The translations under genes and the position numbers were made by a program. The notes beneath the pieces are model-generated. The model ran no database searches. It was given only the letters and a program-made list of their open reading frames with translations, and was not told the origin of the DNA. Shown piece after piece: positions 56,901-63,628 of a stretch of 64,000 nucleotides of DNA (positions within the stretch are counted from its first letter, which is position 1; each line of letters begins with the position of its first letter). The DNA is from Armatimonadota bacterium (GTDB lineage: Bacteria; Armatimonadota; HRBIN16): positions 372,001 through 436,000 of the forward strand of contig BPGT01000003.1 in the NCBI GenBank assembly GCA_026003175.1, in the 5' to 3' direction.

Positions 56901-57040
56901 TCAAAGGCTTCGGCGTGCGGTCCCCAGCCGCGCAGGATTTCGAAAATGGTACGCGCGCGTTGCAGGTCACGAATGCCAAGATCCTGCAGCAGCGCGTCGG
57001 TCAGCGATGCTAACGGGTTAGGTGGTTTTTCCACTGGCAC
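53909..57040 (-). CDS. glnE: Glutamine synthetase adenylyltransferase/deadenylase
   Basis: Bifunctional regulator of glutamine synthetase, 1043 residues, normal length. Two nucleotidyltransferase domains are visible: MGKLGGRELNYSSDIDLIFV (about 223) for deadenylation and MGKLGGWELGYASDADILFV (about 768) for adenylylation, each with helical bundles after it and RLRPEGR blocks. The product controls nitrogen assimilation with PII, which is not in the window. plsY follows after four bases; a tandem repeat lies just upstream. Confidence 0.95.
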   Translation of the reverse strand: MPVEKPPNPLASLTDALLQDLGIRDLQRARTIFEILRGWGPHAEAFDQMLPHLLQAMKLSPDPDMALNNFERWQANLANRLPYYRFLAENPTVLEIFFTVCATSQFFSEILIQNPEYFEFFSDPSLRRRPKTASQHYRDLQNLMRTCTSYGMKIDALRRYKQREVLRIGVMDILGVLDLPEVAQAFSDFADACVQVAYEIAHGELARRYEMSGTPAFAVIGMGKLGGRELNYSSDIDLIFVHDDDVGVTGKMSGSQYAERLAQEIVNVLARNTERGFVFRVDLRLRPEGRYGPPSRSLSSYRHYYENWAETWERQALIKARFVAGDPRLGEAFTRMAQEYIYQSYVPAEWVEDIRHNKRRLEQKANLADETHTNVKIGEGGIRDIEFTVQLLQLLVGGQHPSVRTGNTLEALQRLRREGFLTPEEAIILRESYCFLRTIEHRLQILYEQQTQKLPTDPRQLDLLARRMGFENAEYFRETYDRVRAQVREIFLRVFYGEASDRVMQQQESTLRDLLNAIDDPRAQQKVHQHLEQNGFREPERALRLLQIPLMGTDAGIEEIDGVQPVTRGAASPAMRQSFLRIAPALITYAARSPSPDDALLGIETLALAVPNRAQLYTAFADSPEVLRRLVGLAGASPPTMRLLSNHQELLDLLFSEEIIASEPKTREQMLQALRQRLGLPEELRPGIPRGFPERQAQAIASFIRRERLRIIARDVWGEARGVDTARDLTHLMEAVLECVLQLVQAHAIEAHPDREEVLRSVAIIGMGKLGGWELGYASDADILFVFEHPASVSHAEAYAVTAKMCEECLQFCRLVRSQHAPLEVDARLRPEGRFGAIVRTVDDYRQYYLTRGDTWERQALIKARPVAGNPVVGEAWRQMVEEEVVYARGLSDEELESIRHIKRRVENERLKPEHRWRDVKLGYGGMLDIEFAVQTWQLRVGKQHRSVRHTSTLSALHALRMIAMVSPADSRNVAEAYPLWNTVRNVLTLRHGMPRDVIPDDEAELQILARMLGRENPVQMLQEFEHLMSEVRGWVERDLFGD

Positions 57041-57085
57041 CCCTCGATGTGAACGATGATATGCGAAAGCCTGAGTGTAAGTAGA

Positions 57086-57254
57086 CCTAACCCCCCTGCC
57101 CCCTTCCCTGCGAGGGAAGGGGGAACTCCCCTCTCCTTGTAGGAGAGGGGACGGGGGTGAGGTTTTTCTGGCTCACCTAACCTTTCTGCCCCCTTCCCTG
57201 CGAGGGAAGGGGGAACTCCCCTCTCCTTGTAGGAGAGGGGACGGGGGTGAGGTT
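57086..57254. repeat. Two tandem copies of a palindrome-rich repeat
   Basis: Two 79-bp units (57086-57164 and 57176-57254, spacing 90) are almost identical. Each contains two hairpins: CCCCCTTCCCT/AGGGAAGGGGG and CCCCTCTCCT/AGGAGAGGGG. On the minus strand they translate as PHPRPLSYKERGV repeats, a known signature of dispersed intergenic repeats in several bacterial phyla. They occupy the gap between der and glnE. Confidence 0.88.
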
Positions 57255-57274
57255 CCACCACAACGCCCAATCCC

Positions 57275-58654
57275 TCATGCATCGTCGCGATGTTTGCCTT
57301 TTGCCTCCCTGACCTCGATACGGATAGGTGTGCCTTCTAGTGGAAACTGCTGGCGGATGGCGTTTTCCAGATAGCGTAAGTACGAGAAATGCACGATGTC
57401 CGGGTCGTTCACAAACAGCACCACCGTCGGCGGTTTGGTAGAGGGCATGGTGGCGTAGTATACCTTCAGTATTTTGCCTTTGCGGCTATATGGACGAGCA
57501 TCTACCGCATCGTGTATCAGGCGGTTGAGCACGCCGGTAGGGATGCGGTGTGCGTGTGCCTCCGCCGCCTCCAACGCGGTATCTACTACAGCGGGAATAC
57601 CCATGCCCGTCAGCGCGCTGGCGAACACAAGAGGCGCGAAGTGCAGGAACGGACACTCCTTACGGAAGATACGCGTGAAATCCATCATCAGCGTTTTGCT
57701 GGTGGGATTCTTCATCTTATCCCACTTGTTCACCACCACCACGCAAGCGCGTCCCTCTTCCACCGCGTAACCGCCCACGCGCTTGTCGCCGTCGGCAACG
57801 CCTTGCGGGCCGTCCAGCACCAGCAACGCCACATCGCATCGCTGGATGGCTTTTTGCGCCCGCAGCACGCTGTAATACTCTATGGAACCCTGCACCTTGC
57901 CCGGACGGCGGATACCTGCAGTGTCAATCAGCACCATCTTCTGCCCATCGCGCTCAAAGGGGGTGTCTATCGCGTCGCGGGTGGTCCCGGGTATTTCGCT
58001 CACTATCACGCGCGGCGCGCCGAGGATGGCGTTCACCAGCGACGATTTGCCCACATTAGGTCTGCCCACAATGGCAAGTTTGATCGCGGTGTCTTCCTCT
58101 TCCGATGGTCGGGCTGGCGGAAGCAGATCTGTTACCCTGTCTAGCACTTCGGCAACGCCATGTCCGTGTATCGCCGAGATGGTGAACACCTCATCCCAGC
58201 CCAGCGCGTAGAACTCGGTGGCGTCCGCTTCGCGACGGGCATTGTCCACTTTGTTCACCACCAACAGCACCGGTTTGGTGGTGGTACGCAGCACATCTGC
58301 CAGTTCCTCATCGGCAGGGGTGATACCCTCTACCGCATCCACCAGAAACAGGATAGCGTCCGCTTCTTCAACCGCCGCTAAAGCCTGCACGCGCACCTGT
58401 GTGATGAGAGGGTCTTCATCTTCCAGCAACACCCCACCGGTATCCACCACCTGGAAAATGCGCCCACGCCACTCGGCTTCCCCGTACAGACGGTCGCGGG
58501 TAATACCGGGCGTATCTTCCACAATCGCCACGCGCCTGCCCACCAGCCGATTGAACAGGGTGGACTTACCCACATTCGGCCGCCCTACAATCGCCACTGT
58601 GGGCAACCGTAGCTGCTGGGATTCACTGACGGTCTGTACAGAGGTCTTTTCCAT
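57275..58654 (-). CDS. der: GTPase Der (EngA)
   Basis: Tandem-GTPase needed for 50S ribosome assembly, about 459 residues. Two G domains each show GRPNVGKS (about 20 and 200), DTGG or DTAG, and NKVD or NKWD motifs, followed by the KH-like C-terminal domain (PTVVLFVNDPDIVHFSYLRYLE, split into two conserved blocks). The ATG at 58654 gives a start close to the usual length; the frame is open to an ATG at 58681 and neither has a strong ribosome site. Confidence 0.94.
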   Translation of the reverse strand: MEKTSVQTVSESQQLRLPTVAIVGRPNVGKSTLFNRLVGRRVAIVEDTPGITRDRLYGEAEWRGRIFQVVDTGGVLLEDEDPLITQVRVQALAAVEEADAILFLVDAVEGITPADEELADVLRTTTKPVLLVVNKVDNARREADATEFYALGWDEVFTISAIHGHGVAEVLDRVTDLLPPARPSEEEDTAIKLAIVGRPNVGKSSLVNAILGAPRVIVSEIPGTTRDAIDTPFERDGQKMVLIDTAGIRRPGKVQGSIEYYSVLRAQKAIQRCDVALLVLDGPQGVADGDKRVGGYAVEEGRACVVVVNKWDKMKNPTSKTLMMDFTRIFRKECPFLHFAPLVFASALTGMGIPAVVDTALEAAEAHAHRIPTGVLNRLIHDAVDARPYSRKGKILKVYYATMPSTKPPTVVLFVNDPDIVHFSYLRYLENAIRQQFPLEGTPIRIEVREAKGKHRDDA

Positions 58655-58812: not shown

Positions 58813-60840
58813 TCAGCCTCGCTGCATCTGCTCGTACTCCAGTGGATGCTCCTCTTGCAGATGACGCAGGGAGATGCGCCCGTCCAGCCACACGCGACTC
58901 ATAGGGAACATGCCCGGCTTGAAGTGCACATGGTACATATGCCAGATGATGATGGTCAGGAACGCCAGCAGTGCCTCATAGCCATGTATCAGGCGGGCGA
59001 TGTGCCACATCCACAGCGGCAAGTAGCGGAAAGCCAGATCCTCGCCCCACATGACCAGCCCGGTCAGTATCATCACTACTGTGCCCCACACCACGGCGAG
59101 GTATTCGAACTTCTCAATCCAGTTGAACCGTCCGAAGCGCGGTTTCTCCTGCGACAACCCCAGATAGCAGCGAATCATTTGCCAGATATCGGTGAAGTCC
59201 TTGCGCGTCCAGCGCAGGTGCTTCAGCTGCTCGCGCCCGCGCGGGGTTAACAGCCACAGGGGATGCCATATCGCCAGCGTGATGAGCATCACCGCGCCAA
59301 TGCGGTGGATGATGCCGCGCAGTTCGACGCTGCCCGGGAAGCTGTAGAACACCCTCGCCCAGCCCGACTCGGCGTAGCTAACGGGCATGCCCGAAATCAC
59401 CAGCAGGGTGAACGCCACCACCAGCACCAGATGCTGTAACCGTTCGTTCAGGCTGAGGCGTTCTACAAACTGATGTGATAACGGGTCGTCGGGGCGGTGC
59501 GGCGAGACCGCGTGGCTTGGTCGTCCCCGCCGATAACTGAAGATGTCCAGTATCAGATAGATAGTAAAGAATCCGATGGTGGCGAAGATGGCTATCTGGT
59601 ATGCTACCTTGATGTACCAGTACAGCGGGCTGGCGGTACGAGTGCCCACGAAATGCACCTTGCCCATGGCTACCCCTCTGCCGATGCCCGGATGGCAGGA
59701 ACCACAGGTTTTCTGCAGGTTTGCAGGGTAGATGGTAGAACGTGGGTCAGTAGACGGCAGGATATTATGCGCTCCGTGGCAACTGGCACAATGCGCCACC
59801 GTACTTTGCCCATAGCGGTTCATGATACCATGATAGCTCTGGCGGTACGTGGACAGGCGCAGGGTGGGCAAGCCAATGGCGCGTTGCAGCTGCTGATTTT
59901 CGTGACACTTGCTGCAGGTGGCCACAATGTGCTGTGGGTACACCGAAGATTCAGGGTCCTGCGGGCTGCGGATGGTGTGCTCACCATGGCAGTCGGTGCA
60001 GACAGGGGCTTGCTTCACGCCCTTCGCTACTGCCTGACCATGGATGCTCTGCTGCCATTCCCGGAAGATACCCTCGTGGCATTTGCCGCAGGTTTCGGGC
60101 AAGTTGGCACGTGCGACGGTAGAGTTGGGGTCGGTAGCACGACGGATACCATGCACGCCGTGGCAGTCGGTGCATACCGCTGGCGGCTTCCCCGGCGCGG
60201 AGGAGGAGCCGTTTCTGCCCTGCCTGAGCAGCTGACCGTGCACGCTGCGCTCGTAATAGAGCAGTACCTCTCCTTTGGGGATGCGGTTCCACTCTACCAG
60301 CTGGGCATCGCTATGGCAACGGGCGCAGGTTTGCGGAATGTTTGCGTGGTAGACGTGCGAACCCGGATTACTGGCAGGCAGGATGTCATGGTGTCCATGA
60401 CAGTCCGCGCAACGCGGAGCATCGGGGTTGCCTCGTGCCACCGCCTCGCCGTGCACGCTGTCGGCGTAGGTCTTGAAAATCGCCTGCGCAAAGGTGGGCG
60501 CCTGCGCCACGCGCTTCTCCAGATGACAGCTACCGCATTCCACCTTCTGCACGTGCTTGGCGTGAGGCAGTTGGGTGGGGTTAATGTCTGTATGGCACTG
60601 CGTGCAGCGCAGGCTCTTGTGCACCGAGCGGTTGAACGCCACCAGGTCTACAAACACGCTCTTACGCCGCCCGTGCACGTCAAAGCCATACAGGTCGTCT
60701 TTGCCGTGACACCGCTGGCAGGCTTGGATCTCCTGCTGAGCGGTCATCGCAAGTCGGGCAGGTTGTTGTGCCCATACGACAGCTATCACCCACAACACCG
60801 TCAGGGTGCTTGCCAGTATCCACTTTAGACGAGTTTTCAT
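58813..60840 (-). CDS. Eleven-heme cytochrome c fused to a b-type cytochrome membrane domain
   Basis: Predicted electron-transfer protein of about 675 residues. After a signal peptide or anchor (LKWILASTLTVLWVIAVVWAQ), residues about 40-410 carry eleven CxxCH heme sites (CQRCH, CTQCH, CGSCH, CADCH, CARCH, CTDCH, CGKCH, CTDCH, CSKCH, CASCH, CGSCH). The C-terminal part has about five membrane helices with conserved His (RLQHLVLVV, IIHRIGAVML, IWHPLWLL, LIHGYEALL, IIWHMYHVHF), like cytochrome b561/formate-dehydrogenase gamma. It should connect quinones and periplasmic or extracellular hemes. AAGGGTGG supports the ATG at 60840. It ends the operon started by the Rieske gene. Confidence 0.87.
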   Translation of the reverse strand: MKTRLKWILASTLTVLWVIAVVWAQQPARLAMTAQQEIQACQRCHGKDDLYGFDVHGRRKSVFVDLVAFNRSVHKSLRCTQCHTDINPTQLPHAKHVQKVECGSCHLEKRVAQAPTFAQAIFKTYADSVHGEAVARGNPDAPRCADCHGHHDILPASNPGSHVYHANIPQTCARCHSDAQLVEWNRIPKGEVLLYYERSVHGQLLRQGRNGSSSAPGKPPAVCTDCHGVHGIRRATDPNSTVARANLPETCGKCHEGIFREWQQSIHGQAVAKGVKQAPVCTDCHGEHTIRSPQDPESSVYPQHIVATCSKCHENQQLQRAIGLPTLRLSTYRQSYHGIMNRYGQSTVAHCASCHGAHNILPSTDPRSTIYPANLQKTCGSCHPGIGRGVAMGKVHFVGTRTASPLYWYIKVAYQIAIFATIGFFTIYLILDIFSYRRGRPSHAVSPHRPDDPLSHQFVERLSLNERLQHLVLVVAFTLLVISGMPVSYAESGWARVFYSFPGSVELRGIIHRIGAVMLITLAIWHPLWLLTPRGREQLKHLRWTRKDFTDIWQMIRCYLGLSQEKPRFGRFNWIEKFEYLAVVWGTVVMILTGLVMWGEDLAFRYLPLWMWHIARLIHGYEALLAFLTIIIWHMYHVHFKPGMFPMSRVWLDGRISLRHLQEEHPLEYEQMQRG

Positions 60841-60857: not shown

Positions 60858-63125
60858 CTACGGCTGATGGCACTGGTTACAGTATTTGATGTCATGGCAT
60901 GTAGTGCACTGCGCTTTCTGCAGGTTCTTGACCCCGCTATAGCCCTTCCAGCCTCGTTGCTGACCCAGCTTGCCGTGGGTCTCGCCCCAGTCCTTGGGAT
61001 GTGGCATTGGCGTCTTATGGCAGTTCATACAGGCGTTGCGCCCGTGACACACCTGACAGCTGACTCCGCTGTCGGTGATGCGTCGCGGATGTTCCGTGCG
61101 GAAATCCTCCGTGTGCGACGAAGGCGGCGCCTGATGGCAGGTCTGGCAGGTCTCCTCCTGGAAGTTATGGCATCGCTGGCACAGTACGGGATTCTTGTGC
61201 CCGACCTGTGGGTGGTTCGAATCCCACCCTTCGGGATGCGGCATAGGCAAACCGTGACAGCTCTGGCAAAACTGAGGCTGGTGGCAGGAGTTACACGATG
61301 CCGCTCCCTGCTTTAGCGCCAGTTTGCCGTGTCCGACCTGCGGGTCGCGCAGGAAGTTTGCCACCTTGTGACTGGCTGGCAGTGCTCCGCTATGGCAGCC
61401 CTGGCAAGACTGAGGCGTATGGCACTGATAGCACATCTGGTGCATGGTTTGCCCTGCCCACTGTAGCTTCTCGCCGAACTGCGCCAATTTGGAGCCGTGT
61501 TGCTGGATCCACCGTGTATCGTGGCGCATCACCTTGTGGCAGCTCTCGCAGTAGTCTGGCGAGTGGCAGGCGGTGCACATCTCCGGTCGCTCCGCCGCGT
61601 TGCCGAAGTGGAACTTCAGCCACTGCGCATCGTGTGAGCTGGGGCGGCGGTTCTGGTGACATGCCTGACAGAAGAACGGCTTATGGCAGTCGCTGCAGCT
61701 GCCCGGGTCCTTGCGCACCTCGAACTTGTGGTTCACGAACCAGTTCTCCTCGAAGTGCGAGGCGGGCTTCTCCGGCTCGGTGGGCGGGATAGGGGGCATC
61801 TTCGAGTTGGGTCCGATGCTTACGATGTACGCCACCAGTGCCGCTTCCTTGTCCGGCGGCAGTTGGTACGCGGGCATGATGGTGTGTGGGTTGTGTGCGG
61901 AGGGGTTGCGCAGCAAGTTGCGCACTACTTCAGGGTCACGCTTGCCACCTAGTCCTAAATCGGGACCAACAGGACCTCCACCACCGTTGATGCCGTGACA
62001 GGAATAGCATTTCAGCTCCACGAACACCCGCTGTCCTTGTTTCTCCAGCGGTGACAGCCGCTCGGGTTCGGGCAGAGCTTCCATGCCTTTCACGTTGAGC
62101 CCCACAATGATAAGCAGCACCAGTGTGCCGGTGCTGAGCGCGAGCAAGCGCTTGCGTGGCTGGCGTTCGGGGTTGCGCTCGATAAATGGCACTATCAGCA
62201 GTAAGACCACCAGCAGAGTGGGTAACACAAACGAGCCGACGAACTCGAGTTTTGGCGGGAAGAAGTTCATCAGTTCATGCATCCACAGCACGTAGAAATC
62301 GGGATGCGGCTTGTAAGCGGTGTCCATCGGGTTGGCGCGCGGCTCTAGAGGAGCTGGGGATACGAGAGACAGCCATATCAACAGGGCGGAGAGGATAACC
62401 GCTCCCACGGCGATACGAGCAGTATGTTCGGGGTAGAGGCGTTGTGTCTTTTCCGCGTTTGCCTCTTCGTTCACCCGCACCCCCGGTGGCGTGACTCCCA
62501 TCCGGCGTACCTGCAGCACATGCCATGCTACCAGCAGGAACACCAGCACCGAGAGCACAAACACGTGCAGCACAAAGAAACGCATCAACGTGACCGCGCC
62601 CACCGTATCGCCCCCGCGCAGGAAGGTAGCAGCTGCCTCACCTACCAGCGGCACACCCTCTGCAATCTTCAAGCGCACCACCGTACCCCAGTATGCCTTC
62701 TGGTCCCACGGCAGCGCGTAACCGGTCAAACCATAGCCGATGACGGTCAGCAGGAGCAGCACACCCGTTACCCATATCATCTGGCGCGGTCGCTTGTATG
62801 CTCCCCAGAAGAACACGCGCAGGATATGGATGATGATAAGGGGCACGATGAGCCGTGCCGCCCAGTAGTGCAGAGCGCGGATGAACTGCCCCGCAGGCAG
62901 ATAATGTTCGATGTACTGCACCGAAGCATACGCCTGTTCCGGGGTGGGGCTGTAATAGAACATGAGCGCGCCGCCGGTGAGGAAAAGCACCACCAGCATC
63001 AACAGGGTCAACGCGCCGAAGATGTGTCCCCATCCTACACCGGCAGGCAGGGGTTGCGTCCAGAACCGCCCCCATGCGCTGATGAGCCCCGTCTCACGCT
63101 CAAACCAGTCCAGCAGTTTTCGCAA
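60858..63125 (-). CDS. Cytochrome b (b6 + subunit IV type) fused to monoheme and 14-heme cytochrome c
   Basis: Protein of 755 residues combining most of a bc complex. Residues about 1-230 are a cytochrome b with two His pairs (ALHYWAARLIVPLIIIHIL, LHVFVLSVLVFLLVAWH). About 235-365 resemble subunit IV, with PDFY in place of the PEWY quinol-site motif. A monoheme cytochrome c (CYSCHGINGGGG) follows near 375. The last 285 residues contain fourteen CxxCH sites arranged as seven pairs, mostly CxxCH-x4-CxxCH. The start is TTG with GGGAGG seven bases before it. The partner Rieske protein is encoded immediately upstream. Confidence 0.9.
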   Translation of the reverse strand: MRKLLDWFERETGLISAWGRFWTQPLPAGVGWGHIFGALTLLMLVVLFLTGGALMFYYSPTPEQAYASVQYIEHYLPAGQFIRALHYWAARLIVPLIIIHILRVFFWGAYKRPRQMIWVTGVLLLLTVIGYGLTGYALPWDQKAYWGTVVRLKIAEGVPLVGEAAATFLRGGDTVGAVTLMRFFVLHVFVLSVLVFLLVAWHVLQVRRMGVTPPGVRVNEEANAEKTQRLYPEHTARIAVGAVILSALLIWLSLVSPAPLEPRANPMDTAYKPHPDFYVLWMHELMNFFPPKLEFVGSFVLPTLLVVLLLIVPFIERNPERQPRKRLLALSTGTLVLLIIVGLNVKGMEALPEPERLSPLEKQGQRVFVELKCYSCHGINGGGGPVGPDLGLGGKRDPEVVRNLLRNPSAHNPHTIMPAYQLPPDKEAALVAYIVSIGPNSKMPPIPPTEPEKPASHFEENWFVNHKFEVRKDPGSCSDCHKPFFCQACHQNRRPSSHDAQWLKFHFGNAAERPEMCTACHSPDYCESCHKVMRHDTRWIQQHGSKLAQFGEKLQWAGQTMHQMCYQCHTPQSCQGCHSGALPASHKVANFLRDPQVGHGKLALKQGAASCNSCHQPQFCQSCHGLPMPHPEGWDSNHPQVGHKNPVLCQRCHNFQEETCQTCHQAPPSSHTEDFRTEHPRRITDSGVSCQVCHGRNACMNCHKTPMPHPKDWGETHGKLGQQRGWKGYSGVKNLQKAQCTTCHDIKYCNQCHQP

Positions 63126-63151: not shown

Positions 63152-63628
63152 CTATACGTTCTCCGGACGCACGTACAACAGACCACCTTCCACTTTGTGC
63201 GGGTACTCCGCTAGCGGGCGAGGAGGTGGTCCCTGTATGACTCTGCCATCGGCATCAAAATATCCGGCATGACAGGGGCAGAAGAAAGCGTTTTTTGCTC
63301 GCTCCCATCGGACGGCACAGCTGGCATGTGTGCAGATATTGGAAAGCACCTTTAGCGAGCCATCGGACCTGGCGACCACGTAAACTGTGCTGCGTACGGT
63401 GCGGATAACCCATCCGTCGCGACGCTGATAGCTCAACGTGACTGCTTTGGGCTCACCGGCGGAGAACTCGTTCACGTTGCCTACTTTGATCCAGGGGGGC
63501 TTTTGTCTGCGGAAAGCGGGCGCTACCAACATGACCAGCGCGGGTATGCTGTATACGACTGCCAGGAGAGTTGCTAACGCTTTAACCAGCGTAGCCAGCC
63601 ATTCCCGACGTGTCAACCTTTCTTCCAT
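63152..63628 (-). CDS. Rieske [2Fe-2S] iron-sulfur protein
   Basis: Membrane-anchored Rieske protein of 158 residues. The N-terminal TRREWLATL and a hydrophobic segment (LATLLAVVYSIPALVMLVAP) form an anchor or Tat-type signal (one Arg pair only). The cluster motifs are CTHASC (about 104) and CPCHAGYFD (about 121), giving two Cys and two His ligands. First gene of the operon with the cytochrome b/multiheme fusion 26 bases downstream, so it should be the Rieske subunit of a quinol-oxidising complex. Confidence 0.93.
   Translation of the reverse strand: MEERLTRREWLATLVKALATLLAVVYSIPALVMLVAPAFRRQKPPWIKVGNVNEFSAGEPKAVTLSYQRRDGWVIRTVRSTVYVVARSDGSLKVLSNICTHASCAVRWERAKNAFFCPCHAGYFDADGRVIQGPPPRPLAEYPHKVEGGLLYVRPENV

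Follow-up and report, generated by a model that had tools for sequence, protein, structure and literature searches.

A cytochrome b fused to seven di-heme modules in Armatimonadota: a putative menaquinol-oxidizing complex with a covalent multiheme tail

The window analyzed here is a stretch of 64,000 nucleotides from an Armatimonadota genome (assembly GCA_026003175.1, contig BPGT01000003.1, positions 372,001 to 436,000). Toward its end, the minus strand carries a Rieske gene, a gene fusing cytochrome b to 15 c-type heme motifs (CxxCH), and an 11-heme gene, in this order of reading. Their positions in the window, and those of the parts of the fused gene, are as follows.

63152..63628, minus strand: Rieske [2Fe-2S] protein, 158 aa, with an N-terminal membrane anchor (Pfam Rieske, 4.7e-16)
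60858..63125, minus strand: fused cytochrome b, monoheme cytochrome c and seven di-heme modules, 755 aa, 15 CxxCH
62076..63125, minus strand: cytochrome b domain, residues 1-350, b6-like helices A-D followed by subunit-IV-like helices E-G
61791..62063, minus strand: monoheme class-I-like cytochrome c, residues 355-445, CYSCH373 (Pfam Cytochrom_C, 2.6e-7)
60861..61790, minus strand: multiheme tail, residues 446-755, with 14 CxxCH and 16 further His
61656..61697, minus strand: di-heme module 1 (x4)
61536..61577, minus strand: di-heme module 2 (x4)
61392..61433, minus strand: di-heme module 3 (x4)
61254..61295, minus strand: di-heme module 4 (x4)
61134..61181, minus strand: di-heme module 5 (x6)
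61017..61058, minus strand: di-heme module 6 (x4)
60867..60908, minus strand: di-heme module 7 (x4)
58813..60840, minus strand: CbcL-like gene, 11-heme cytochrome c linked to a cytochrome b of the b561/FdnI type (Pfam)

The fused gene is a single unbroken frame with a TTG start preceded by GGAGG. Its product matched Pfam Cytochrome_B (3.7e-43), Cytochrom_B_C (2e-4) and Cytochrom_C (2.6e-7), which cover a cytochrome b6/petB part, a petD-like C-terminal half and a class-I-type cytochrome c. The CxxCH motifs lie at residues 373, 477/486, 517/526, 565/574, 611/620, 649/660, 690/699 and 740/749. The first-pass annotation had described one frame joining a two-domain cytochrome b with both His pairs and a PDFY motif, a monoheme cytochrome c and 14 more CxxCH in seven pairs, six spaced by four residues and one by six. 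This description was borne out in full, the successive spacings being 4, 4, 4, 4, 6, 4 and 4.

The fused protein could be aligned with cytochrome b6 without gaps over residues 2-214, with all four heme-b His kept; these ligands (His86/100/187/202, in helices B and D) were invariant in 40 sequences of its relatives. In the same alignment, position 35 of cytochrome b6, the Cys for heme cN in b6f, is occupied by Ile. The PEWY-type motif of the Qo site reads PDFY at residue 275 (62292-62303), as it does in the genus of the window, with PEWY or PEWF in most relatives and a degenerate PAHTDWY in L113/L114. Structure prediction, which had been proposed for the heme tail, gave seven long membrane-type helices in the protein, but the tail itself was modeled poorly (pLDDT 45-70). 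The modeled membrane part resembled bc1 cytochrome b, with a TM of 0.7-0.8 on the target. When the whole model was used in a fold search, the matches were confined to this cytochrome b part and thus uninformative on the tail. We have used the topology rule of b6/subunit IV to orient the C-terminal part, and the seven modeled helices would therefore place the heme c part on the periplasmic side.

In the monoheme domain, C373, C376, H377 and M417 were invariant in the same 40 sequences. Since both the CxxCH and Met417 are conserved, this domain is likely the equivalent of cytochrome c1/f and the direct acceptor of the Rieske electron. Family searches found no match to cytochrome f in the fused gene or its neighbors, and the separate cytochrome c1 of the bc1 type is not the case here either, the c domain being fused and class-I-like.

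The Rieske gene stands upstream of the fused gene, carries the cluster boxes CTHASC and CPCHAG, has b6f-type Rieske proteins as its closest PDB relatives and keeps its position beside nearly all homologs of the fused gene. That the two proteins form a Rieske/cytochrome b complex is near certain. High-potential Rieske proteins have Ser after box II, and Gly at this place fits a low-potential protein of the menaquinol type; the residue is Gly in the Rieske protein of the window, in line with menaquinone as the probable substrate quinone. Altogether, the domains, the ligands and the fold match of the membrane part supported the earlier proposal of a quinol-oxidizing complex with a built-in multiheme extension.

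The 11-heme gene, downstream of the fused gene, matched Cytochrome_C7 (1.3e-15) and Ni_hydr_CYTB (4.9e-13) in Pfam, as well as formate-DH-gamma (2.9e-13). Its likely start is an ATG at 60840, followed by a signal peptide, and an alternative GTG at 60873 is likewise open. The order Rieske, fused gene, 11-heme gene is preserved within the genus, the 11-heme gene stays beside the fused gene in L001-L004, and homologs of the 11-heme gene adjoin NrfH-anchored multiheme genes in other Armatimonadota families. Its product is a probable partner of the fused protein.

The tail modules follow the consensus CxxCHxxxxCxxCH-x4-5-P-x-SH-x3-W-x4-H over about 38-46 residues, a pattern kept in all families. 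The 14 motif His and 16 other His are enough for bis-His ligation of each tail heme, and we predict such ligation together with heme occupancy. In the six frames of the window, besides the fused gene and its 11-heme neighbor, one open segment only contains even two CxxCH. A scan of the 4.1-Mb genome for the CxxCH pair pattern gave 11 occurrences versus 0 in the reversed control, and seven of these 11 are the modules of the fused gene. We found no convincing family match for the tail in Pfam, NCBIfam or PDB: NCBIfam gave none, Pfam gave no more than a low score for Cytochrome_C7 and an MtrC/MtrF domain below threshold, and OmcS, OmcE and OmcZ were absent from the matches of the tail profile to all PDB chain sequences, the best of which was 3oue (0.0086). 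The OmcS/OmcE/OmcZ extracellular nanowires are built from a secreted multiheme subunit that polymerizes; the tail is membrane-anchored.

A homology search for the same domain order recovered the fusion in 23 of 291 Armatimonadota genomes, with full-length orthologs in 10 families. These contain 13, 15, 17, 19 or 21 hemes, always an odd number (1 + 2n). The first-pass annotation had allowed for an assembly fusion; an artefact of assembly or frame is ruled out, because the same length and spacing recur in independently assembled genomes and the same architecture is found across the 10 families. Twenty fused proteins, compared by their cytochrome b parts, formed one clade (support 100/99) with a single gain on the tree, separate from fusions with one or two hemes and from a split form of Chloroflexota; the second cytochrome b of the window genome fell in yet another clade. 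This ruled out horizontal spread or repeated fusion, and by the cytochrome b tree the fused design was inherited once across Armatimonadota. The only other phylum label among the homologs, a "Bacillota" MAG (L014), is the same contig as an entry of our genome set (G198, JAUVSA010000259.1), and the genome search and its cytochrome b group it with Armatimonadota.

As a separate observation, one copy of the fused gene (L015:5216-7894) is split over two frames, with 3 hemes in one and 15 in the other. This is probably an assembly indel; intact copies occur elsewhere, among them that of L010 from the same genome project.

The number of modules varies also within the genus. Two of its species (L005 and L103) are each shorter by precisely 46 codons (138 bp, one module) at an identical place, corresponding to gene nucleotides 1719-1856, from module 3 reaching into module 4, so that the first heme of module 3 is joined to the second heme of module 4. 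Since a sister family (L006) has the modules absent from these two, we read the difference as a loss through in-register recombination. It had been suggested that the tail grew by duplication of a di-heme unit. A change of length by whole units is directly supported by the 138-bp difference and the 1 + 2n hemes; the original growth by duplication would be the natural counterpart of module loss, but is not proven.

Relatives detected with the tail profile were present in 54 of 291 Armatimonadota genomes, with weaker stretches in 57/295 Nitrospirota and 15/350 Chloroflexota; attachment to cytochrome b was absent in every Chloroflexota relative looked at. The same modules follow an NrfH/NapC-type anchor in proteins of 16-28 hemes, several of which adjoin a CbcL-like gene; the four proteins below have 21-28 CxxCH:

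L007:974-2512: NrfH/NapC-anchored module protein
L012:6483-8495: NrfH/NapC-anchored module protein, 28 hemes in 670 aa
L156:574-2445: NrfH/NapC-anchored module protein
L158:673-2652: NrfH/NapC-anchored module protein

In addition, an MtrA-like protein ending in a single di-heme module is encoded adjacent to the fused gene in L009. Because the modules occur on Rieske/b, NrfH/NapC-type and MtrA-like proteins, the module is, as judged from sequence, a cassette common to several redox proteins.

To our knowledge, model metal reducers send quinol electrons outward via the small dehydrogenases CymA, CbcL and ImcH, none of which has a Q cycle. An open suggestion, dating from the finding of a Geobacter cluster (PMC2825233), is that bc complexes can supply extracellular electron transfer. 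This cluster, GSU2930-GSU2937, likewise combines a Rieske protein and a cytochrome b with many c hemes, but its hemes are on separate 2-, 5-, 10- and 12-heme proteins, whereas the fused gene places 15 on the cytochrome b polypeptide. In Kuenenia (PMC12954380), Kuste3096-3097 has a two-heme cytochrome c fused to cytochrome b, and two larger complexes have multiheme c subunits, but these are separate and the fused part has two hemes only; moreover, the Kuenenia complexes are b6-like and contain both heme cN and NAD(P) reductase modules, which were not seen in the fused system. Multiheme Rieske/b complexes are also known in Methanoperedens. The b-c fusions of Nitrospirota, FCPU426, Acidobacteriota and others share the cytochrome b-then-c order and the adjoining Rieske gene (34-41% identity), but end after one or two hemes (about 440-590 aa). 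Hence, the earlier statement that bc complexes normally use a separate one- or two-heme cytochrome c has to be amended, many-heme forms being known and fused forms with one or two hemes being common, and the new element is the covalent tail of di-heme modules.

Two further systems resemble the fused protein in part. In Chloroflexota (L054, L056, L063, L069, L076, L077), the cytochrome b unit likewise bears a multiheme extension at its C-terminal half, but cytochrome b6 is a separate gene and a subunit-IV-like protein is fused to seven CxxCH; since this cytochrome b6 belongs to another clade, the seven-heme extension apparently arose independently. In CbcL of Geobacter sulfurreducens (PMC9129911), a cytochrome b on the quinol side is covalently linked to a multiheme c domain in the periplasm. 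By domains and description, the layout of CbcL is close to that of the 11-heme gene at 58813-60840; unlike the fused complex, CbcL has an FdnI-type b domain and nine hemes, with neither Rieske protein nor Q cycle. Membrane-embedded multiheme cytochromes of unknown function have been reported in hot-spring Armatimonadota (PMC11788075), and the open-access literature that we searched contains no description of a wire of di-heme modules fused to a member of this cytochrome b family.

The window genome is 97% complete, and three of its loci outside the window bear on where the electrons might go:

L116:7926-13285 (G000:C1, 263.9-269.3 kb): MtrAB-like locus with two multiheme lipoprotein-like genes
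L118:2248-8308 (G000:C2, ~530-536 kb): second Rieske/cytochrome b pair, without cytochrome c
L119:4448-4771 (G000:C5): small triheme c7-type cytochrome beside a TtrA/TtrB-like molybdoenzyme pair

In the first of these loci, an MtrA/DmsE-type decaheme gene adjoins the gene of a large outer-membrane protein, followed by two 8-heme genes whose products have lipoprotein-like N-termini. The decaheme protein had chain A of the Mtr complex as its best PDB match (6r2q_A, 1.6e-26) and scored just below the TIGR03508 cut-off. The outer-membrane protein had no useful match in sequence families and was recognized by fold only, so that the barrel escapes sequence-based annotation. Its model (pLDDT 82) had 26 strands and a short helix between strands 1 and 2, features also described for MtrB of Shewanella (PMC7198977). 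MtrB (6r2q_B) was the best match of the model (Foldseek 5e-12; VIA Z 24.2 over 492 residues, the next being 15.8), but identity with it was only 13%. On the basis of the model, we regard the barrel as a divergent MtrB.

Shewanella MtrAB is fed by CymA, a NapC-type quinol dehydrogenase, and not by a Rieske/b complex. Homologs of the Armatimonadota barrel were found in 67 of 291 genomes of the phylum, beside an MtrA-like gene in the genomes checked. The genus of the window has its conduit genes about a contig away from the fused gene, without linkage. Among the relatives, L015 has MtrA-like, barrel, lipoprotein, Rieske and fused genes in succession on one strand, and in G201 an MtrA-like frame lies ~10 kb from the fused gene. 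A strong MtrA-like gene was present in 21 of 23 genomes with the fusion and in 76 of 268 without it (P = 3e-9), the genomes being related; at the family level, the co-occurrence was non-significant (9/10 vs. 23/35 families, P = 0.24). MtrABC has been found in other phyla of a hot spring harboring this family (PMC9671151); MtrAB-like conduits in the window genus are undescribed in the open-access literature searched.

Based on these data, the tail is likely a covalent electron outlet of the complex. We consider it reasonably likely that the complex oxidizes menaquinol with conservation of energy and that its heme wire, covalently attached and periplasmic, feeds a conduit in the outer membrane, and the balance tilts toward the cell exterior as the main electron destination. 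Here, the Rieske and fused proteins would oxidize menaquinol, with one electron per quinol passing through the two b hemes in a Q cycle. The other electron would move from the Rieske protein to the Met/His heme in the monoheme c domain of the fused protein and then into the string of bis-His hemes in the periplasm. The string would pass it to the MtrA-like decaheme in the MtrB-like outer-membrane barrel and to the surface multiheme lipoproteins, so that electrons would exit the cell and energy would still be conserved by the Q cycle. The 11-heme/b-type neighbor could be a second, non-bifurcating quinol outlet to the same heme network at low acceptor potential, and oxygen respiration would be carried out by a separate alternative complex III (ACIII) and caa3 oxidase. 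The outward direction, the direct contact with MtrA and the extracellular acceptor are what we infer for this route. Its weak points are the low-confidence model of the tail and the step from the monoheme to the tail, which may be uphill because the potential of bis-His hemes is usually below that of a Met/His heme.

A more far-reaching version, which we put forward only tentatively, has a single polypeptide extending from the Qo site across most of the periplasm and docking on the MtrA-like conduit, so that every exported electron conserves energy. The module number (6 to 10) would then be an evolvable ruler of the gap, and the cassette would have been swapped among Rieske/b, NrfH-type and MtrA-type anchors across the phylum. 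The fused gene would combine a Q-cycle complex and a multiheme outlet in a single frame, and this in a phylum for which extracellular respiration is scarcely known. The question can now be tested: the complex cannot shed its tail, natural variants of the tail differ by whole units, and the genes of the conduit have been identified.

Alternatively, the tail could be a periplasmic hub or capacitor serving soluble reductases (tetrathionate-like, DMSO-type or for nitrogen oxides) rather than the cell surface. A Rieske/b complex of Caldithrix has been proposed to supply periplasmic reductases through multihemes (PMC5317091), and the window genome has candidates for such a role in a TtrA-like molybdoenzyme with its Fe-S partner and the triheme c7-type protein, a candidate periplasmic shuttle, and in a DMSO-type II molybdoenzyme. 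The latter adjoins the second Rieske/cytochrome b, together with a protein that combines Fe-S, cytochrome c and NarI-like domains, and this second pair is the better candidate partner for it. Moreover, neither in the window genome nor in relatives do the reductase genes lie close to the fused gene, whereas MtrA-like and barrel genes are near it in relatives. We therefore find the hub unlikely.

Inward flow seems to us still harder to sustain. Here, Fe(II) or a partner cell would supply the conduit with electrons, and both the tail and the Rieske/b complex would run in reverse, reducing menaquinone. The MtrAB relatives PioAB and MtoAB of Fe(II) oxidizers do run inward, a reverse bc1 is known in acidophilic iron oxidizers, and low-potential bis-His hemes outside a Met/His heme would suit this direction. 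However, RuBisCO is absent from the 97% complete genome, which makes life by inward electrons less probable. In this family-level clade, the MAGs carry many glycoside hydrolases (PMC9671151), so that its members look like polysaccharide degraders with probably organic donors. Both observations make inward flow less likely than the outward route.

It is highly improbable that the complex is a cytochrome c reductase whose tail feeds the caa3-type oxidase encoded in the genome or only guards against over-reduction, since that oxidase is already preceded by a complete ACIII cluster with its own cytochrome c subunits and such a job needs no 14-heme tail. The first-pass annotation had advised looking for a canonical bc1/b6f or an alternative complex III, and the genome has both this cluster and the second Rieske/cytochrome b. 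The cluster, immediately preceding the caa3 genes, encodes a pentaheme ActA-like protein, an ActB-like TAT/molybdopterin-Fe-S protein, two NrfD-like proteins and Act-type cytochromes; with ACIII and caa3 available for oxygen, the fused complex is not needed for the oxygen chain.

Elsewhere in the window, at 57010-57282 on the minus strand, a short interspersed repeat read as PHPRPLSYKERGVPPSLAGKG occurs twice in one small frame, which sits between a glutamine-synthetase adenylyltransferase-like gene and a Der-like GTPase gene.
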